Shown: positions 1,626 to 5,836 of the stretch, piece by piece
Layout of the letters: each line of letters begins with the position of its first letter
Numbering within the stretch: position 1 is the stretch's first letter
Assembly: GCA_946614205.1 (NCBI GenBank)
Contig: CAMOGR010000026.1
Span: 1 to 5,836 of the forward strand
Reading direction: 5' to 3'
Origin: an uncultured Bacteroidales bacterium
GTDB lineage: Bacteria; Bacteroidota; Bacteroidia; Bacteroidales; UBA932
DNA length: 5,836 nt
Notes under the pieces: model-generated
What the model saw: only the letters and a program-made list of their open reading frames with translations
Databases searched by the model: none
Told to the model about the DNA's origin: nothing
Program-made: the position numbers and the translations under genes

Positions 1626-2453
1626 ATGAAAATTATCAGGTACATGGTATTCGGCGTTGCGCTGCTCGCACTTGCCGCCTGCAAGGGAAAAGACATACAT
1701 CTGGACAGGATAACCCTCGACCCTCCCGTCCTGCTGCTTACGACGGGCCAGGACGCGACCCTGGGCGTAAATTTCCTTTCCGGGACAAGCGAGGCCGTCA
1801 TCTGGTACTCCAGCGCCCCTGAAATCGCCACCGTGACGGACGGCAAGGTGACATGTCTTTCCCACGGCAAGGCAACAATATCCGCCGTCACGGAGAAGAC
1901 AGGCCTTAGGGCCGACTGCGAAGTAACCGTCCGCACCCCCGAGGAAATGGTTTCCGGAGTAACGGTTTCCCCGTCGGAACTCTCCCTGTACCTTGGGGAA
2001 TGGGCGGAACTGACGGCCAGCGTACAACCTTCGACAGCCACCGAACAGGACGTGGTCTGGAGCAGTTCCGACCTGACAATAGCCACCGTGGGCAGCAGCG
2101 GATACGTACTCTCGAGGGCCGAGGGGACCGCCATCATCACTGCAACTACCGTTGAAGGGGGCTATACCGCAACTTGCACCGTTACCGTACTGCCCGCCTT
2201 CGTGGAGGTGGAGTCCGTATCAATCGCTGATGAGCTTTACATAAAGGTCGGAGAATCGGTCAGGCTGACCCCCGAGATACTGCCGGAAAACGCCACGATA
2301 AAAGACGTGGAGTGGAAAAGTTACGACGAATCCATCGTAACCGTAGACAGCGACGGCGTGGTAACGGGAATCGCGCCCGGCTACATGTACGTCGAGGTAC
2401 AGACCGTAAACGGAGGCAAGAAGCACAAATGCTTCGTCGCCGTCACAGAATAG
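1626..2453 (+). CDS. Lipoprotein with three Big_2 (bacterial Ig-like) domains
   Basis: Encodes 275 aa. A lipoprotein signal peptide (residues 1-18) ends in lipobox LAAC, with the lipidated Cys at 19 followed by KGKD. Three Ig-like group 2 repeats follow at about 26-102, 109-188 and 195-274. Each has the Big_2 layout: a V-x-V-x-P type first strand, a central Trp (IWYSS, VWSSS, EWKSY at W60, W145 and W230, exactly 85 residues apart), I-A/V-T-V then G-x-V, and a final C-x-V strand (C98, C184, C269). Big_2 domains are structural or adhesive modules common in cell-surface proteins; no catalytic part is present. The four residues after Cys19 are not strongly acidic, so the Bacteroidetes surface-export signal is not clear-cut, and the protein could face either side of the outer membrane. 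Domain 1 is the most divergent and has an extra Cys77. The gene stands alone, divergent from the Omp85-like gene, and its 3' end overlaps the convergent LytTR gene by 11 bp. Confidence 0.88.
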   Translation: MKIIRYMVFGVALLALAACKGKDIHLDRITLDPPVLLLTTGQDATLGVNFLSGTSEAVIWYSSAPEIATVTDGKVTCLSHGKATISAVTEKTGLRADCEVTVRTPEEMVSGVTVSPSELSLYLGEWAELTASVQPSTATEQDVVWSSSDLTIATVGSSGYVLSRAEGTAIITATTVEGGYTATCTVTVLPAFVEVESVSIADELYIKVGESVRLTPEILPENATIKDVEWKSYDESIVTVDSDGVVTGIAPGYMYVEVQTVNGGKKHKCFVAVTE

Positions 2454-3258
2454 CCGAAAAGCTCTCGTAATATTTCTTCGAAATCGGGATTCCCTCATCG
2501 AGCCCCACATCGGCGACGTTCACACCGCCGGGCTCCCTGCGTATCAGTTTGACATGGAGAGGGTTGACTATATAGCTGCGGTGCGTACGGGCAAATCCGG
2601 CCTTTTCGCACAGGGGCTCGATGTTCTTCATGGAGTTGCGCAGCTGGTATTTTTTCTCGAGACCGTTCTCAAGATAATGAATAACGATGTAATTCTCGTT
2701 GGACTCAATGAAAACCACCGATGAAGCCTCGGTAATGAACTTGAGCTGATGGCGGCTGTCGTAGAACTTCAGGCGTGCGTCCTGCTCTGCTGAAGCCAGC
2801 CGAGGCTTTTCGCCGACAAGATAAAGCAGGCCGATTATTATATAAGGGTAAATCAACACCGAACCTATCGACGTGATGCCCCGGCCGAAGTAGTTGAAGA
2901 AGCCCCCCTCCGAAGATCGGTCGACCAGGACGAGGTATAGCCCGGTGAAGGCGCACATCACCACAATTTCCCCGAGGCACCAGAAAGAATAACGCCACAG
3001 GTCGGCCGGGAAGTGCCTGCGGACAAGCCATAGGGCCATGCGCGTAAGTACCATGGAAACCAGGATGATGGCAAAGCAGATGACCGTATTGAAAGTGCGC
3101 ACGTTGCTCACGGCAAGATAGCGGCTGCCTGATTCCATCAGGTGGTCGAGGGCCCTCGGTTCATAGAGCAGGACAGCGACCAGGAAGAACGCCGGCAGGG
3201 CCGCCATGTGCAGAAATGTGGCCGGAAGACGGGTAAGAGACCTTGGAAAACTTGTCAT
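2443..3258 (-). CDS. Membrane-embedded LytTR-family transcriptional regulator
   Basis: Encodes 271 aa. The N-terminal half has four hydrophobic segments at about 16-32, 55-79, 92-112 and 129-148, joined by short loops. A linker (about 150-170) leads to a LytTR DNA-binding domain at about 171-271. LytTR landmarks are visible: SSVVFIESNENYIVIHY (179-195), the FARTHRSYIVN block (222-232), and a C-terminal IPISKKYYESF (257-267). LytTR domains bind short direct repeats about two helical turns apart. There is no response-regulator receiver domain, so this is a one-component design in which the membrane part probably senses or is controlled by an envelope signal or partner. The start at 3258 places the first helix near the N-terminus and sits about 16 nt downstream of the predicted transcription start. 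The gene is divergent from the acyltransferase cassette and shares its repeat-rich promoter region. The fold assignment is firm; target and signal are unknown. Confidence 0.9.
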   Translation of the reverse strand: MTSFPRSLTRLPATFLHMAALPAFFLVAVLLYEPRALDHLMESGSRYLAVSNVRTFNTVICFAIILVSMVLTRMALWLVRRHFPADLWRYSFWCLGEIVVMCAFTGLYLVLVDRSSEGGFFNYFGRGITSIGSVLIYPYIIIGLLYLVGEKPRLASAEQDARLKFYDSRHQLKFITEASSVVFIESNENYIVIHYLENGLEKKYQLRNSMKNIEPLCEKAGFARTHRSYIVNPLHVKLIRREPGGVNVADVGLDEGIPISKKYYESFSAIL

Positions 3259-3260
3259 TC

Positions 3261-3373
3261 GTCACTAGTTTTGTTGTGACAAAGATAAATATTATTTTGA
3301 TTTCGTCACAAAAATCCCGGAATTTTGTCACAAAACAGGCATTTTTATCACAAAAATGCGTTTTAAATCACAC
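3261..3373. repeat. Ladder of TTTTGTCACAAAA-like sites (candidate operator array)
   Basis: Repeated near-palindromic sites share a TTGTCACAA core. Their centre bases are 3278 (TTGTGACAA, the complementary orientation), 3307 (TTTCGTCACAAAA), 3329 (TTTTGTCACAAAA, perfect 6+1+6 symmetry) and 3349 (TTTTATCACAAAA). A degenerate copy is centred at 3369 (AAATCACAC) and another at 3263 (GTCAC). The steps from 3307 are 22, 20 and 20 bp, about two helical turns each. The site at 3349 is also the centre of an 8-bp perfect inverted repeat, GCATTTTT (3339-3346) with AAAAATGC (3352-3359). The array covers the -33 box of the LytTR gene and ends just upstream of the -33 region of the divergent cassette. The spacing fits the way LytTR proteins bind, so the neighbouring regulator is the best candidate; this is inference. 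Confidence 0.72.
3280..3312 (-). promoter_or_regulatory. Promoter of the LytTR gene
   Basis: On the minus strand TATCTTTG (3287-3280) matches TAnnTTTG. TTTG at 3312-3309, 21 bases upstream, is a fitting -33 box. The predicted transcription start is near 3274, with a leader of about 16 nt. The -33 box is part of the repeat centred at 3307, and the -7 box abuts the repeat centred at 3278. A protein bound at these sites should block or alter this promoter, which suggests autoregulation. Confidence 0.68.
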
Positions 3374-3376
3374 TTC

Positions 3377-3408
3377 TTTCCTTAATGGAGCCCAAGTGTC
3401 TACTTTTG
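3377..3408 (+). promoter_or_regulatory. Promoter of the acyltransferase/ligase cassette
   Basis: TACTTTTG at 3401-3408 matches TAnnTTTG. TTTC at 3377-3380, 20 bases upstream, resembles the -33 box TTTG. The predicted start is near 3414. The repeat centres 3369, 3349, 3329 and 3307 would then lie at about -45, -65, -85 and -107, a usual place for activator sites. The ATG at 3411 would be at or before the transcript start, which argues for translation from 3435. Confidence 0.65.
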
Positions 3409-3434
3409 CAATGCCAAACAGAAAGACTACTACT

Positions 3435-4784
3435 ATGACAGCTCCTGAATGGACAAGACTTGAGAATTCAGCTATAATATATCCCTCTTGCCGCACACGC
3501 AAGTATGCAACAGTTTACCGCATGTCCATAACCCTGGACTCGCCGGTCGATCCGGAAAAACTTCAGCAGGCGCTTACGAGCGTAATGCGCCGTTTCCCCA
3601 GCTTCCGCTACACAGTCCGGCGCGGCCTCTTCTGGTGGTTCCTCCAGAAACTTGAGAACGACCCCGTGCTCGTCGCCCGCACAGACCTCTCCCCCATCAA
3701 TCTCAAACGCAACGGCGGATACATGTTCCGCCTCAGTTGCGAAGACTGCCGCATCGACATGGATGTCTACCATGCACTCACAGACGGCAACGGAGCCCTC
3801 ACTTTCCTGCTCAGCCTGGTGGCCGAATACCTCAAAATCGCATGCGGCACCTCTGTAGAATACGGGAAGTGGATTTACAACCCCGAAGACGAACCTGTAG
3901 CGGAAGAACTGGAGGACGGATTCGACAAGTTTTCCGGAACCAAGGGTTCGCTTGACGAAGAGAAGCGCGCATGGCACATATCCGGCACGGAGGAACGCCC
4001 CGACGTTCTCAATTCCATGGGCGTAAGCCTTTCGGTGGAAGAGGCAAAGGAAGCAGCCGGCAAATACGGATGCACGCTCACCGAGTTCCTTTCCGCCGTA
4101 ATGCTCGTCTCCCTGCAGGAAGTGCGCTCCGCACAGAAGGGAAGCAAGAGCCCGTACATCCGCATGGAAGTCCCCGTCAACCTCAGGCCTATTTTCGGCA
4201 GCAGGACACTGCGGAACTTCTCATCTTATGTTTACCTCACTCTTGACGTGAGCAACGGAGAAGCAAGCTTCGAGGACATCCTCAAGGAAGTCAAATACCA
4301 GAAACGCCTCTACACGCAGCCCGGACGCCTTACGAGGCGCATCGCAGCAAACGTGGCGCTCGAGGACAATCTCGGAATACGCCTCATCCCCCTCGCCATC
4401 AAGAAACCCATAATCAACCTTATCAATTACCTCAAGGGAGACAACTACGGGACGTACACTTTCTCCAACATAGGCAACGTAGAGCTGCCCGAAGAAGTGG
4501 CGGCGCACATCCGGGACATCGGTTTCGTGCTCGGACGCACCCGCAGCCGCTCCGGCTCATGCGCGGCAGTGAGTTTCGGCGGCCGTATGAACCTCAACTT
4601 CACCCGCAAGATAGCCCAGGACGATTTCGAGCGCATCTTCGTCCGCAGGCTCCGCGAAACCGGTGTCTGGGCCTCGGTTCAGGTCCCGGCATCACCCCTC
4701 CGCCCCACGGCCGGGCGGGATACCGGCACGAGGCGCGTATTCCGCAACCGTTCCCTCGTTCCGAAGTTCCTTTTGTCCATATAA
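3435..4784 (+). CDS. Condensation/acetyltransferase-fold (HxxxDG) acyltransferase
   Basis: Encodes 449 aa. Residues 113-118 read HALTDG, the HxxxDG active-site motif of the superfamily that includes chloramphenicol acetyltransferase, NRPS condensation domains, PapA5, alcohol O-acetyltransferases and wax ester synthases; H113 would be the general base. Supporting family features are FPSFRYTVRRGLFWWFL (54-70), PVNLRP (247-252) followed by RNFSS, and FSNIG with ELPEE (343-354). The family moves an acyl group from CoA or a carrier to an alcohol or amine. No membrane helix or signal peptide is seen, so the enzyme is probably cytoplasmic. The start at 3435 is preferred; ATGs at 3243 and 3411 are in frame, but the first reads through the repeat array and the second lies at the predicted transcript start. 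The last 30 or so residues (from about 418) form a Pro/Arg-rich tail that looks unlike the rest. The gene is followed after 22 bp by a PlsC-like gene. Donor and acceptor are unknown. Confidence 0.82.
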   Translation: MTAPEWTRLENSAIIYPSCRTRKYATVYRMSITLDSPVDPEKLQQALTSVMRRFPSFRYTVRRGLFWWFLQKLENDPVLVARTDLSPINLKRNGGYMFRLSCEDCRIDMDVYHALTDGNGALTFLLSLVAEYLKIACGTSVEYGKWIYNPEDEPVAEELEDGFDKFSGTKGSLDEEKRAWHISGTEERPDVLNSMGVSLSVEEAKEAAGKYGCTLTEFLSAVMLVSLQEVRSAQKGSKSPYIRMEVPVNLRPIFGSRTLRNFSSYVYLTLDVSNGEASFEDILKEVKYQKRLYTQPGRLTRRIAANVALEDNLGIRLIPLAIKKPIINLINYLKGDNYGTYTFSNIGNVELPEEVAAHIRDIGFVLGRTRSRSGSCAAVSFGGRMNLNFTRKIAQDDFERIFVRRLRETGVWASVQVPASPLRPTAGRDTGTRRVFRNRSLVPKFLLSI

Positions 4785-4806: not shown

Positions 4807-5364
4807 ATGGACAATTGGGCTAAATTCTGCGGCTTCCTGCTGCGCAAACTCGGCTGGACTCGCGTCGACAAGCCGGCCGAGGAAGACAAATGCATCATAC
4901 TCGGAGTCCCTCATACGACAATCTGGGATTTCGTCATTTCCTACCTGTACTACCGTTCGTACGGCGAAAGGGCCAAGTGCATGGTGAAGAAGGAACTGTT
5001 CTTCCCGCCGCTTGGCTGGATAGTCCGCGCCATGGGAGGGATCCCCGTAGACCGCAGCAGCCCTACGCAGCTGGTACGCAGCGTCATACACCACATGGAG
5101 GCACCCGGACGCTTCCACCTCGCCATCGCCCCCGAAGGCACCCGGAAGCCCGTCAGGAACTGGAAGACCGGTTTCCACCTCATCGCCCGCACGGCCAACG
5201 TACCCGTATACCTGGGCTATTTCGACTGGGGCACCAAGAGGATCGGCCGTGGAGAGCGGGTCGAACTGACCGACGACGCCCGCGCCGACATGAAACGCAT
5301 CCAGCAGATCTATGAGGGCATGCACCTCACAGGCAAGCACCCCGAAAAGTACATTACACACTGA
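4807..5364 (+). CDS. PlsC-like (LPLAT) acyltransferase, compact form
   Basis: Encodes 185 aa. The glycerolipid acyltransferase blocks appear in order: H36-TTIW-D41 (catalytic HX4D), GGIPVDRS at 77-84 (substrate-binding block), APEGTRK at 108-114 (the EGTR block that contacts phosphate), and NVPVYLG at 131-137. Members of this family transfer acyl chains from acyl-CoA or acyl-ACP to lysophosphatidate or other hydroxyl or amine acceptors. The protein is shorter than typical PlsC (about 240 aa) and lacks a clear N-terminal membrane helix; residues 5-17 are at best a short amphipathic anchor. The start MDNWAKF was chosen because it directly follows a promoter-like box and leaves about 35 residues before the HX4D motif; an upstream in-frame ATG at 4663 would add 48 Pro/Arg-rich residues inside the previous gene. 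Its stop TGA overlaps the ATG of the next gene. Whether it makes phosphatidate or a special lipid cannot be told. Confidence 0.87.
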   Translation: MDNWAKFCGFLLRKLGWTRVDKPAEEDKCIILGVPHTTIWDFVISYLYYRSYGERAKCMVKKELFFPPLGWIVRAMGGIPVDRSSPTQLVRSVIHHMEAPGRFHLAIAPEGTRKPVRNWKTGFHLIARTANVPVYLGYFDWGTKRIGRGERVELTDDARADMKRIQQIYEGMHLTGKHPEKYITH

Positions 5365-5836
5365 TGAAACACAATTTCCAGACACTATCGGAAGTTTTTG
5401 AATACTCGACGAACAAGTATGCGGGACGCCCCGCATATCACCTCATAGACGGAGACCAGGACTACACCTACTCCGAATTCAAGGAGTCCTGCCGCCGCAT
5501 CTCCCGGCAGCTTTCCAACTTCGGCATCAACAGCGGCGACAAGGTAGCCATATTATCCCAGAACATGCCCAACTGGGACGTGGCGTTCTTCTCCATCACG
5601 GCATTCGGCCGCATAGCGGTTCCCCTGCTCACCGAACTGTCCGAGAACGAAATCTCCAACATCCTCATCCACAGTGAGACAAGGGCTCTCTTTGTCTCCC
5701 GGCGCCTTCTTGGCAAGGTCCCCGAAGAGCTGCTCGCATCGATGCGCATCGTCATCGCCACCGACGACCTGTCCATCATACGCACCGGAGAAGACGCCTA
5801 CACCTGCGACGGCAGCATTTCGAGCCCCCTCCCCGA
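5364..5836 (+). CDS. AMP-binding acyl-CoA synthetase-like protein, N-terminal part (cut by window edge)
   Basis: The frame stays open from ATG 5364 to the end, giving 157 residues of a protein that continues beyond the window. It begins MKHNFQTLSEVFEYSTNKYAG. It matches the N-terminal subdomain of long-chain fatty-acid-CoA ligases and related adenylate-forming enzymes: YTYSEFKESCRRISRQL (34-50), GDKVAILSQNMPNWDVAFFSITAFGRIAVPL (58-88), then the ELSENEISNILIHSETRALFVS stretch (91-112). These enzymes activate a carboxylic acid as acyl-AMP and pass it to CoA or a carrier. The diagnostic P-loop (YTSGTTG-like) and catalytic Lys lie off the edge, so activity cannot be judged. ATG overlaps the previous stop by one base (TGATG), a sign of translational coupling with the PlsC-like gene; it may supply acyl donors to both acyltransferases. 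Confidence 0.85.
   Translation, partial: MKHNFQTLSEVFEYSTNKYAGRPAYHLIDGDQDYTYSEFKESCRRISRQLSNFGINSGDKVAILSQNMPNWDVAFFSITAFGRIAVPLLTELSENEISNILIHSETRALFVSRRLLGKVPEELLASMRIVIATDDLSIIRTGEDAYTCDGSISSPLP

Follow-up and report, generated by a model that had tools for sequence, protein, structure and literature searches.

Genes of the locus

The stretch of DNA analysed, here called the window, comprises 5,836 nucleotides of contig CAMOGR010000026.1 (assembly GCA_946614205.1) from an uncultured Bacteroidales bacterium of the GTDB lineage UBA932. It begins with a tRNA-His (GTG) at 10–85, followed on the other strand by a gene for an Omp85-family protein (138–1550). At 1626–2453 lies a gene with three Big_2 stretches, relatives of which are found in the loci L001–L003. 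The Big_2 gene is convergent with, and by 11 bp overlaps, a minus-strand gene (2443–3258) for a LytTR regulator of 271 amino acids. Divergent from the regulator, on the plus strand, lies a cassette encoding an AATase-like acyltransferase (3435–4784; PF07247, E 2.5e-5, scanned from 3414), a PlsC-like acyltransferase (4807–5364; PF01553, E 6.3e-14) and an AMP-binding acyl ligase (5364–5834; PF00501, E 5.8e-22), the last cut by the end of the window. In the related locus L006 (196–5970) the cassette goes on, with AATase, PlsC and acyl ligase genes followed by a DUF3737 gene and a class I/II aminotransferase gene; the latter two were named by Pfam and similar frames occur in many loci. A literature search on DUF3737 found no paper.

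The LytTR domain covers residues 177–270 of the regulator (PF04397, E 1.8e-14, 54.2 bits against a cut-off of 22.6) and is its sole Pfam domain, with no match to a receiver, kinase or MHYT domain. Hydropathy gives four segments, corresponding to four predicted transmembrane helices within residues 13–149, and an AlphaFold2 model (mean pLDDT 87.6, pTM 0.59) likewise has four long helices. The best Foldseek matches of the model are the LytTR proteins 3d6w, ComE (4cbv) and AgrA (4xqj and 3bs1); the fold of the DNA-binding domain is shared with AgrA and ComE at 11–16% identity in the structural match. AgrA and ComE are response regulators and are not membrane-fused. Combining a LytTR DNA-binding domain, identified by Pfam and by structural match, with transmembrane segments in one chain, the protein can be placed both among the LytTR transcription regulators and among the transmembrane one-component regulators (TTR). 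The locus is not built like an LRS, in which a LytTR regulator shares an operon with a separate membrane protein: the regulator itself carries the membrane part, and the gene after it is the Big_2 gene on the opposite strand. Nor does the protein belong to the CoxC subfamily, which is defined by a seven-helix MHYT domain, as it has four helices and no MHYT match.

Sites between the divergent genes

Between the two genes a ladder of five cores was identified, centred at 3349 (A), 3329 (B), 3307 (C), 3278 (D) and 3263 (E), giving steps of 20, 22, 29 and 15 bp, together with a weak sixth core (site 0) centred at 3369. The directional core reads GTGAYNAA on the LytTR strand and D is an inverted copy of it. 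Sites A (3343–3355, core 3347–3351), B (3323–3335, core 3327–3331) and C (3301–3313, core 3305–3309) lie on the minus strand, where C spans what is presumed, from placement by eye, to be the -33 region of the LytTR gene; their plus-strand letters are TTTTATCACAAAA, TTTTGTCACAAAA and TTTCGTCACAAAA, respectively. Site D (3271–3283, plus strand, core 3276–3280) has the plus-strand letters TGTTGTGACAAAG and reads TTTGTCACAACAA on the minus strand. Its left part is the TTTG of the putative -7 element of the LytTR gene, TATCTTTG (3280–3287, minus strand), proposed from column conservation and sequence, which we take to be of the Bacteroidetes -7 type. The core of E (3261–3265, minus strand, GTGAC) adjoins the LytTR start codon and, as GTCAC on the plus strand, stands at two mismatches to the 9-mer, while the core of site 0 (3367–3371, minus strand) is GTGAT in the window, within the plus-strand letters TTAAATCACACTT. 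On the cassette side a putative -7 element, TACTTTTG, is found at 3401–3408 on the plus strand, with the sequence TTTCC (3377–3381, plus strand) at the place of a -33 element, 19 bp from it.

A preliminary description of this DNA had named copies at 3278, 3307, 3329 and 3349 and a decayed one at 3369, all of which are present at these centres, and the 20–22 bp steps it reported are found from 3349 to 3329 (20 bp) and from 3329 to 3307 (22 bp); the core at 3263, just before the LytTR start codon, had been overlooked. Its general picture agrees with what was found here: next to a gene for a membrane LytTR protein stand direct repeats of the LytTR type, at steps of two helical turns, which overlap the promoter of that gene and lie upstream of the divergent cassette.

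A repeat search grouped the copies at 3307, 3329 and 3349 into one family. The 9-mer TTGTSACAA occurs within one mismatch at four places in 3259–3413, a number that was not reached once when these 155 bp were shuffled 20,000 times with dinucleotides preserved (three places were reached by 6 shuffles), and the similarity of three copies at 18–24 bp spacing scored 32, which none of 1000 shuffles reached, the largest score being 27. Over the whole window the 9-mer with two mismatches shows no enrichment (12 matches against 12.65 expected), and the evidence therefore lies in the clustering, spacing and conservation of the copies, not in the word itself.

Conservation and direction of the sites

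Using a profile built from 41 of 120 family proteins among the matches listed, 44 loci were found in contigs of the genome collection, where the nearest loci to the window come from ruminant-gut MAGs. L004 and L042 were dropped first and then rows of more than 85% identity, leaving 39 representatives, the window and 38 relatives. The upstream regions of the profile-matched loci align across the array, and in relatives that keep the LytTR/acyltransferase pair, the comparison set in advance as the one on which the reading should stand or fall, the repeats are conserved. All five cores are kept in 26 of the 39 representatives. Sites B to E keep the exact core in 33–38 of them (GTGAC at B in 36, at C in 34 and at E in 33; GTCAC, on the minus strand, at D in 38), GTGAY is found at A in 35, and site 0 has GCCAC in 12 and GCCAT in 4, the rest being scattered. 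The columns between the sites are mostly weak, except for both -7 elements, the cassette TTTCC and part of the B–C spacer; the TA and TTTG positions of the cassette -7 element are invariant in 39/39, and so are two of the three T in TTTCC (3378 and 3379).

The copies had been described as individually near-palindromic, and they have that appearance. The base at their centre hardly varies, however, being G in the four direct sites A, B, C and E and C in D, the inverted one, and recognition is for that reason predicted to be directional. The copies are accordingly not to be taken as sites read as palindromes; A, B, C and E face one way and D the opposite way. The direct cores are mostly 20–22 bp apart, directional and near a promoter, as expected of a LytTR operator.

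Spacing of C and D in the wider LytTR family

Of 398 genomes sampled from a single group of family rank, 120 have a match to the LytTR family (1e-50). With the same profile, matches at E ≤ 1e-54 were obtained in 29 of 199 genomes and, in the order, matches at 1e-45 in 7 of 393; the order-wide search yielded six new loci, with the C/D pair present in L111–L115 and absent in L116. Sixty further regions were taken from about 90 additional matches, best-scoring first and with two skipped. The resulting 165 upstream regions included 146 non-identical ones (differing in the last 150 bases), in which a direct and an inverted core of the GTGAY or GGGAY type were searched for at any distance from 20 to 38 bp. 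Such a pair is present in 90 of the 146, at 28 bp in 68 and at 29 bp in 22. When direct-to-inverted distances from 5 to 80 bp were collected without selection they fell at 28–29 bp (90), 48–51 bp (77) and 68–71 bp (59), with 10 others. The 56 regions that failed the strict C/D test are in part somewhat degenerate and in part devoid of sites, and four distant paralogues (L082–L084 and L110) have no C/D pair. The same grammar is also seen in arrays at L192, L194, L197 and L237, where a gene for a DcuC-like carrier lies nearby and on the same strand; it was named by Pfam for L192 and is alike by eye for the other three.

Exchange of neighbours and unlinked target genes

Typing the neighbours of the 90 C/D regions by BLAST to 11 representatives revealed a divergent acyl-chemistry gene in 63, namely AATase (32), acyl ligase (13), GDSL lipase (10), thioesterase (6) or PlsC (2). 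The neighbours in L106 and L032 had no Pfam match and served as BLAST representatives named by reading. One of the other regions has a same-strand Mfa2-like gene and 26 have no typed neighbour, among them L195, where Pfam identifies a family-8 glycosyltransferase. Judged from this comparison of sequences, the array stays with the LytTR gene when the neighbour changes.

The two can also be separated. An AATase gene was found in 21 of the 199 sampled genomes, and the sites are present upstream of all 10 genes of 41–70% identity and of none of the 11 of 27–33%. Nine of the 10 genomes with an array-bearing AATase gene also have a close LytTR gene (E ≤ 1e-54, a cut set after seeing a gap from 6.0e-55 to 2.5e-43), as does 1 of the 11 others (Fisher p 3e-4, inflated by shared ancestry); at 1e-20 the profile matches 110 of the 199 genomes. 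In 8 of these 9 genomes the close LytTR gene is on another contig, and 9 of the 10 close AATase homologues are unlinked to a close LytTR gene yet have the upstream sites. One array-bearing genome, G143, of which the completeness is not given, has no LytTR match at 1e-20. At the seven nearest unlinked AATase loci (L148–L154, among them that of G143) the C/D distance is 28 bp in 7/7 and the D/E distance 15 bp in 5/7; sites are present at L155 and L156 too, which fall outside this count. Since the D/E spacing is kept at unlinked AATase genes, it is not kept merely through overlap with the LytTR promoter and start codon.

At ten loci (L078, L079, L081, L086–L089, L095, L185 and L188) the LytTR orthologue stands behind an Mfa2-like fimbrial anchor gene, typed by BLAST to L086, the Pfam match of which (PF08842) is just at the cut-off. 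The C/D pair is found at one of these Mfa2-adjacent loci, two direct cores alone at three and no cores at six; autoregulation is thus not general, and at these loci the regulator seems to work chiefly in trans.

Covariation of the core bases

Some lineages have GGGAC as their direct cores and GTCCC as the inverted one. Comparing the variable base of C with that of D in the 90 regions gave T/A in 61, G/C in 20, G/A in 9 and T/C in none (Fisher 2e-13, inflated by shared ancestry). On a tree of 88 rows the base in C and the base in D have each changed at least 7 times, and a paired test on the tree found three supported independent pairs and none contrary, too few to reach significance. The covariation suggests that a single reader recognises all sites. 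Residues 168, 170, 188 and 220 of the regulator, among others, go with GGGAC, which with so few independent changes makes them leads only.

Copies elsewhere in the genomes

Copies of the array were also counted throughout the genomes of the relatives. The relaxed pattern GTGAYNAAN{11,15}GTGAYNAA matched 58 times across 34 genomes, against 3 matches for the reversed control; as read from the table of matches, 49 of the 58 are at this locus and 9 elsewhere. A strict pattern searched in 30 genomes gave 19 matches in 12 genomes and none in the control, with two extra places, G025:C81 (L046) and G011:C27 (L050). In L046 (1500–1530) a TPR-like gene and a lipoprotein-like gene flank two cores at a distance of 20 bp, and in L050 (1440–1640) two GTCAC cores 21 bp apart, with a third further on, lie between an XRE-like gene and a short open reading frame; the TPR-, lipoprotein- and XRE-like genes were named by eye. 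In the 199 genomes the strict search gave 13 matches in 10 genomes and 2 control matches. The matches in G068, G135, G153, G177 and G185 were set aside by eye as unlike the operator, the one in G153 being a minisatellite, that in G185 likewise by its translated repeats, and those in G068, G135 and G177 single pairs; with all ten genomes counted, a close LytTR gene is present in 5/10. The regulon beyond this locus would be small at most, and the array appears to be mainly a local switch.

Function of the array

At the level of DNA sequence the array, its geometry and directionality, and its association with the LytTR family as well as with unlinked AATase genes are established. The array is most probably the operator of the adjacent membrane LytTR regulator, through which the divergent acyl cassette and the regulator's own promoter would be controlled; sites C–E do coincide with promoter and start-codon sequence and D–E can form a weak hairpin, a caveat to this reading. 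Several LytTR domains would bind the GTGAYNAA cores A, B and C at steps of two helical turns, and the regulator would also bind the inverted site D inside its own -7 element and site E at its start codon. The bound regulator would in this way control the AATase, PlsC and acyl ligase cassette together with its own promoter. The membrane domain with its four helices is likely to be the sensor; judged from the neighbouring genes alone, the signal may be a state of the membrane or of acyl lipids. That the cassette is activated and the regulator represses itself is a guess, to which we give somewhat less than an even chance. Activation is favoured because the cassette has a weak -33 element (TTTCC) with the phased sites 0, A and B upstream, and self-repression because C, D and E cover the LytTR promoter (C the -33 and D the -7 element, by eye). 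There are LytTR activators that bind just upstream of the -35 element (available part of PMC6193735), and the operator of the repressor CoxC overlaps the -35 element (available part of PMC11347149).

An operator of some other, unlinked transcription factor controlling both promoters, for example a CRP/FNR-like dimer, is an unlikely alternative. The word TGTGA is a CRP-type half-site, every copy can be read as the odd near-palindrome TTTTGTSACAAAA, and G143 carries the array at its AATase gene with no LytTR gene detected. The nearly fixed centre base, however, argues against symmetric reading, repetition in the same direction every 20–22 bp is a habit of LytTR regulators, and array and LytTR family remain together through changes of neighbour and mostly through unlinking.

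Two further explanations would take part or all of the array away from DNA-binding proteins. If D and E acted mainly as an RNA hairpin (GUCAC...GUGAC) at the start of the LytTR message, controlling translation, only A–C would be protein sites; the minus strand can indeed fold into a stem of 5 bp (-5.6 kcal/mol, z -1.62) and a longer piece reaches -8.9 kcal/mol (z -2.19, 6 of 200 shuffles as good), but the shorter piece is matched by 16 of 200 shuffles, D lies at the presumed transcription start, the bases of the D and E cores disagree in 7 of 53 regions, and the 15-bp D/E arrangement recurs in front of AATase genes, with no LytTR gene after it, at 5 of the 7 loci, all of which makes the hairpin very improbable. 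We give even less credence to the repeats being coding, as a repetitive N-terminal extension of the AATase. An open frame of 513 amino acids does run from a TTG at 3243 through the array into the AATase gene (3243–4784), with longer frames in several relatives as well; steps of 20 and 22 bp nevertheless shift the frame between copies, conservation falls on the base cores and the -7 elements, and many relatives have the short frame (448–450 amino acids).

Relation to known LytTR systems

The LytTR operators known so far consist of direct repeats at a distance of about two turns (available text of PMC11347149 and PMC6193735), and Bacteroidia are enriched in transmembrane regulators, which are numerous there (PMC10269533, available text). 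The operator reading brings the locus close to CoxC of Afipia carboxidovorans, an MHYT-LytTR one-component regulator in which a membrane domain is likewise fused to LytTR and three direct repeats at two-turn steps (18–21 bp) form an operator overlapping a promoter element. CoxC differs in its seven-helix MHYT gas sensor, its TTNNNGCN repeats and its CO-oxidation targets, and the available part of the report describes no inverted site or acyl cassette such as those of the window (PMC11347149).

Closer in taxonomy are the Bacteroides LRS-like operons (Btheta7330_RS19915 and Bovatus_RS21375), also Bacteroidales LytTR regulators with several transmembrane segments, direct repeats upstream of a promoter and proposed autoregulation; the promoter sequence given for them in Table 3 of PMC6193735 is the same TATCTTTG. 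They have two 11-bp repeats of the TCCGG- and ACCG-type, 11 bp apart and 11 bp upstream of the promoter, and carry an NfeD/DUF2154 membrane protein, whereas the window has up to five GTGAY cores, the one within the -7 element being inverted, and its acyl cassette is divergent; its core GTGAYNAA does not conform to the motif published there. HdrR, BrsR and other LRS regulators share 9-bp direct repeats with gaps of 11–13 bp near a promoter, and autoregulation, but are soluble, with a separate membrane inhibitor protein and ACCACTTAC-like repeats (PMC6193735, available part). The two Bacteroides operators of that table are the only membrane-LytTR operators in this genus that our literature search found, and the same search did not find the GTGAYNAA core, the inverted site in a -7 element, the five-site geometry or the acyl-cassette target, a weak negative as regards the core word. 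In the literature as far as available, membrane LytTR regulators with direct-repeat operators are thus already known; the core, the inverted -7 site and the target were not found described.

We tentatively propose, at rather less than even odds, that these loci represent an undescribed class of Bacteroidales membrane LytTR switches with one rigid operator grammar, consisting of GTGAC or GGGAC direct cores every 20–22 bp, an inverted core 28–29 bp further on inside the -7 element and often a last core 14–15 bp beyond it. A membrane-tethered assembly would span both divergent promoters and tie the expression of acyl-lipid genes to the membrane, and in some lineages the core would have been re-specified in concert. 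In the present loci the operator can be read directly from sequence, the spacing rule being exact to the base in 90 upstream regions, and it suggests that genes of acyl chemistry are frequent targets. Genomes in which the two are unlinked allow target and regulator to be tested apart, and the lineages with GGGAC in place of GTGAC offer a natural way into the question of base choice by LytTR domains.
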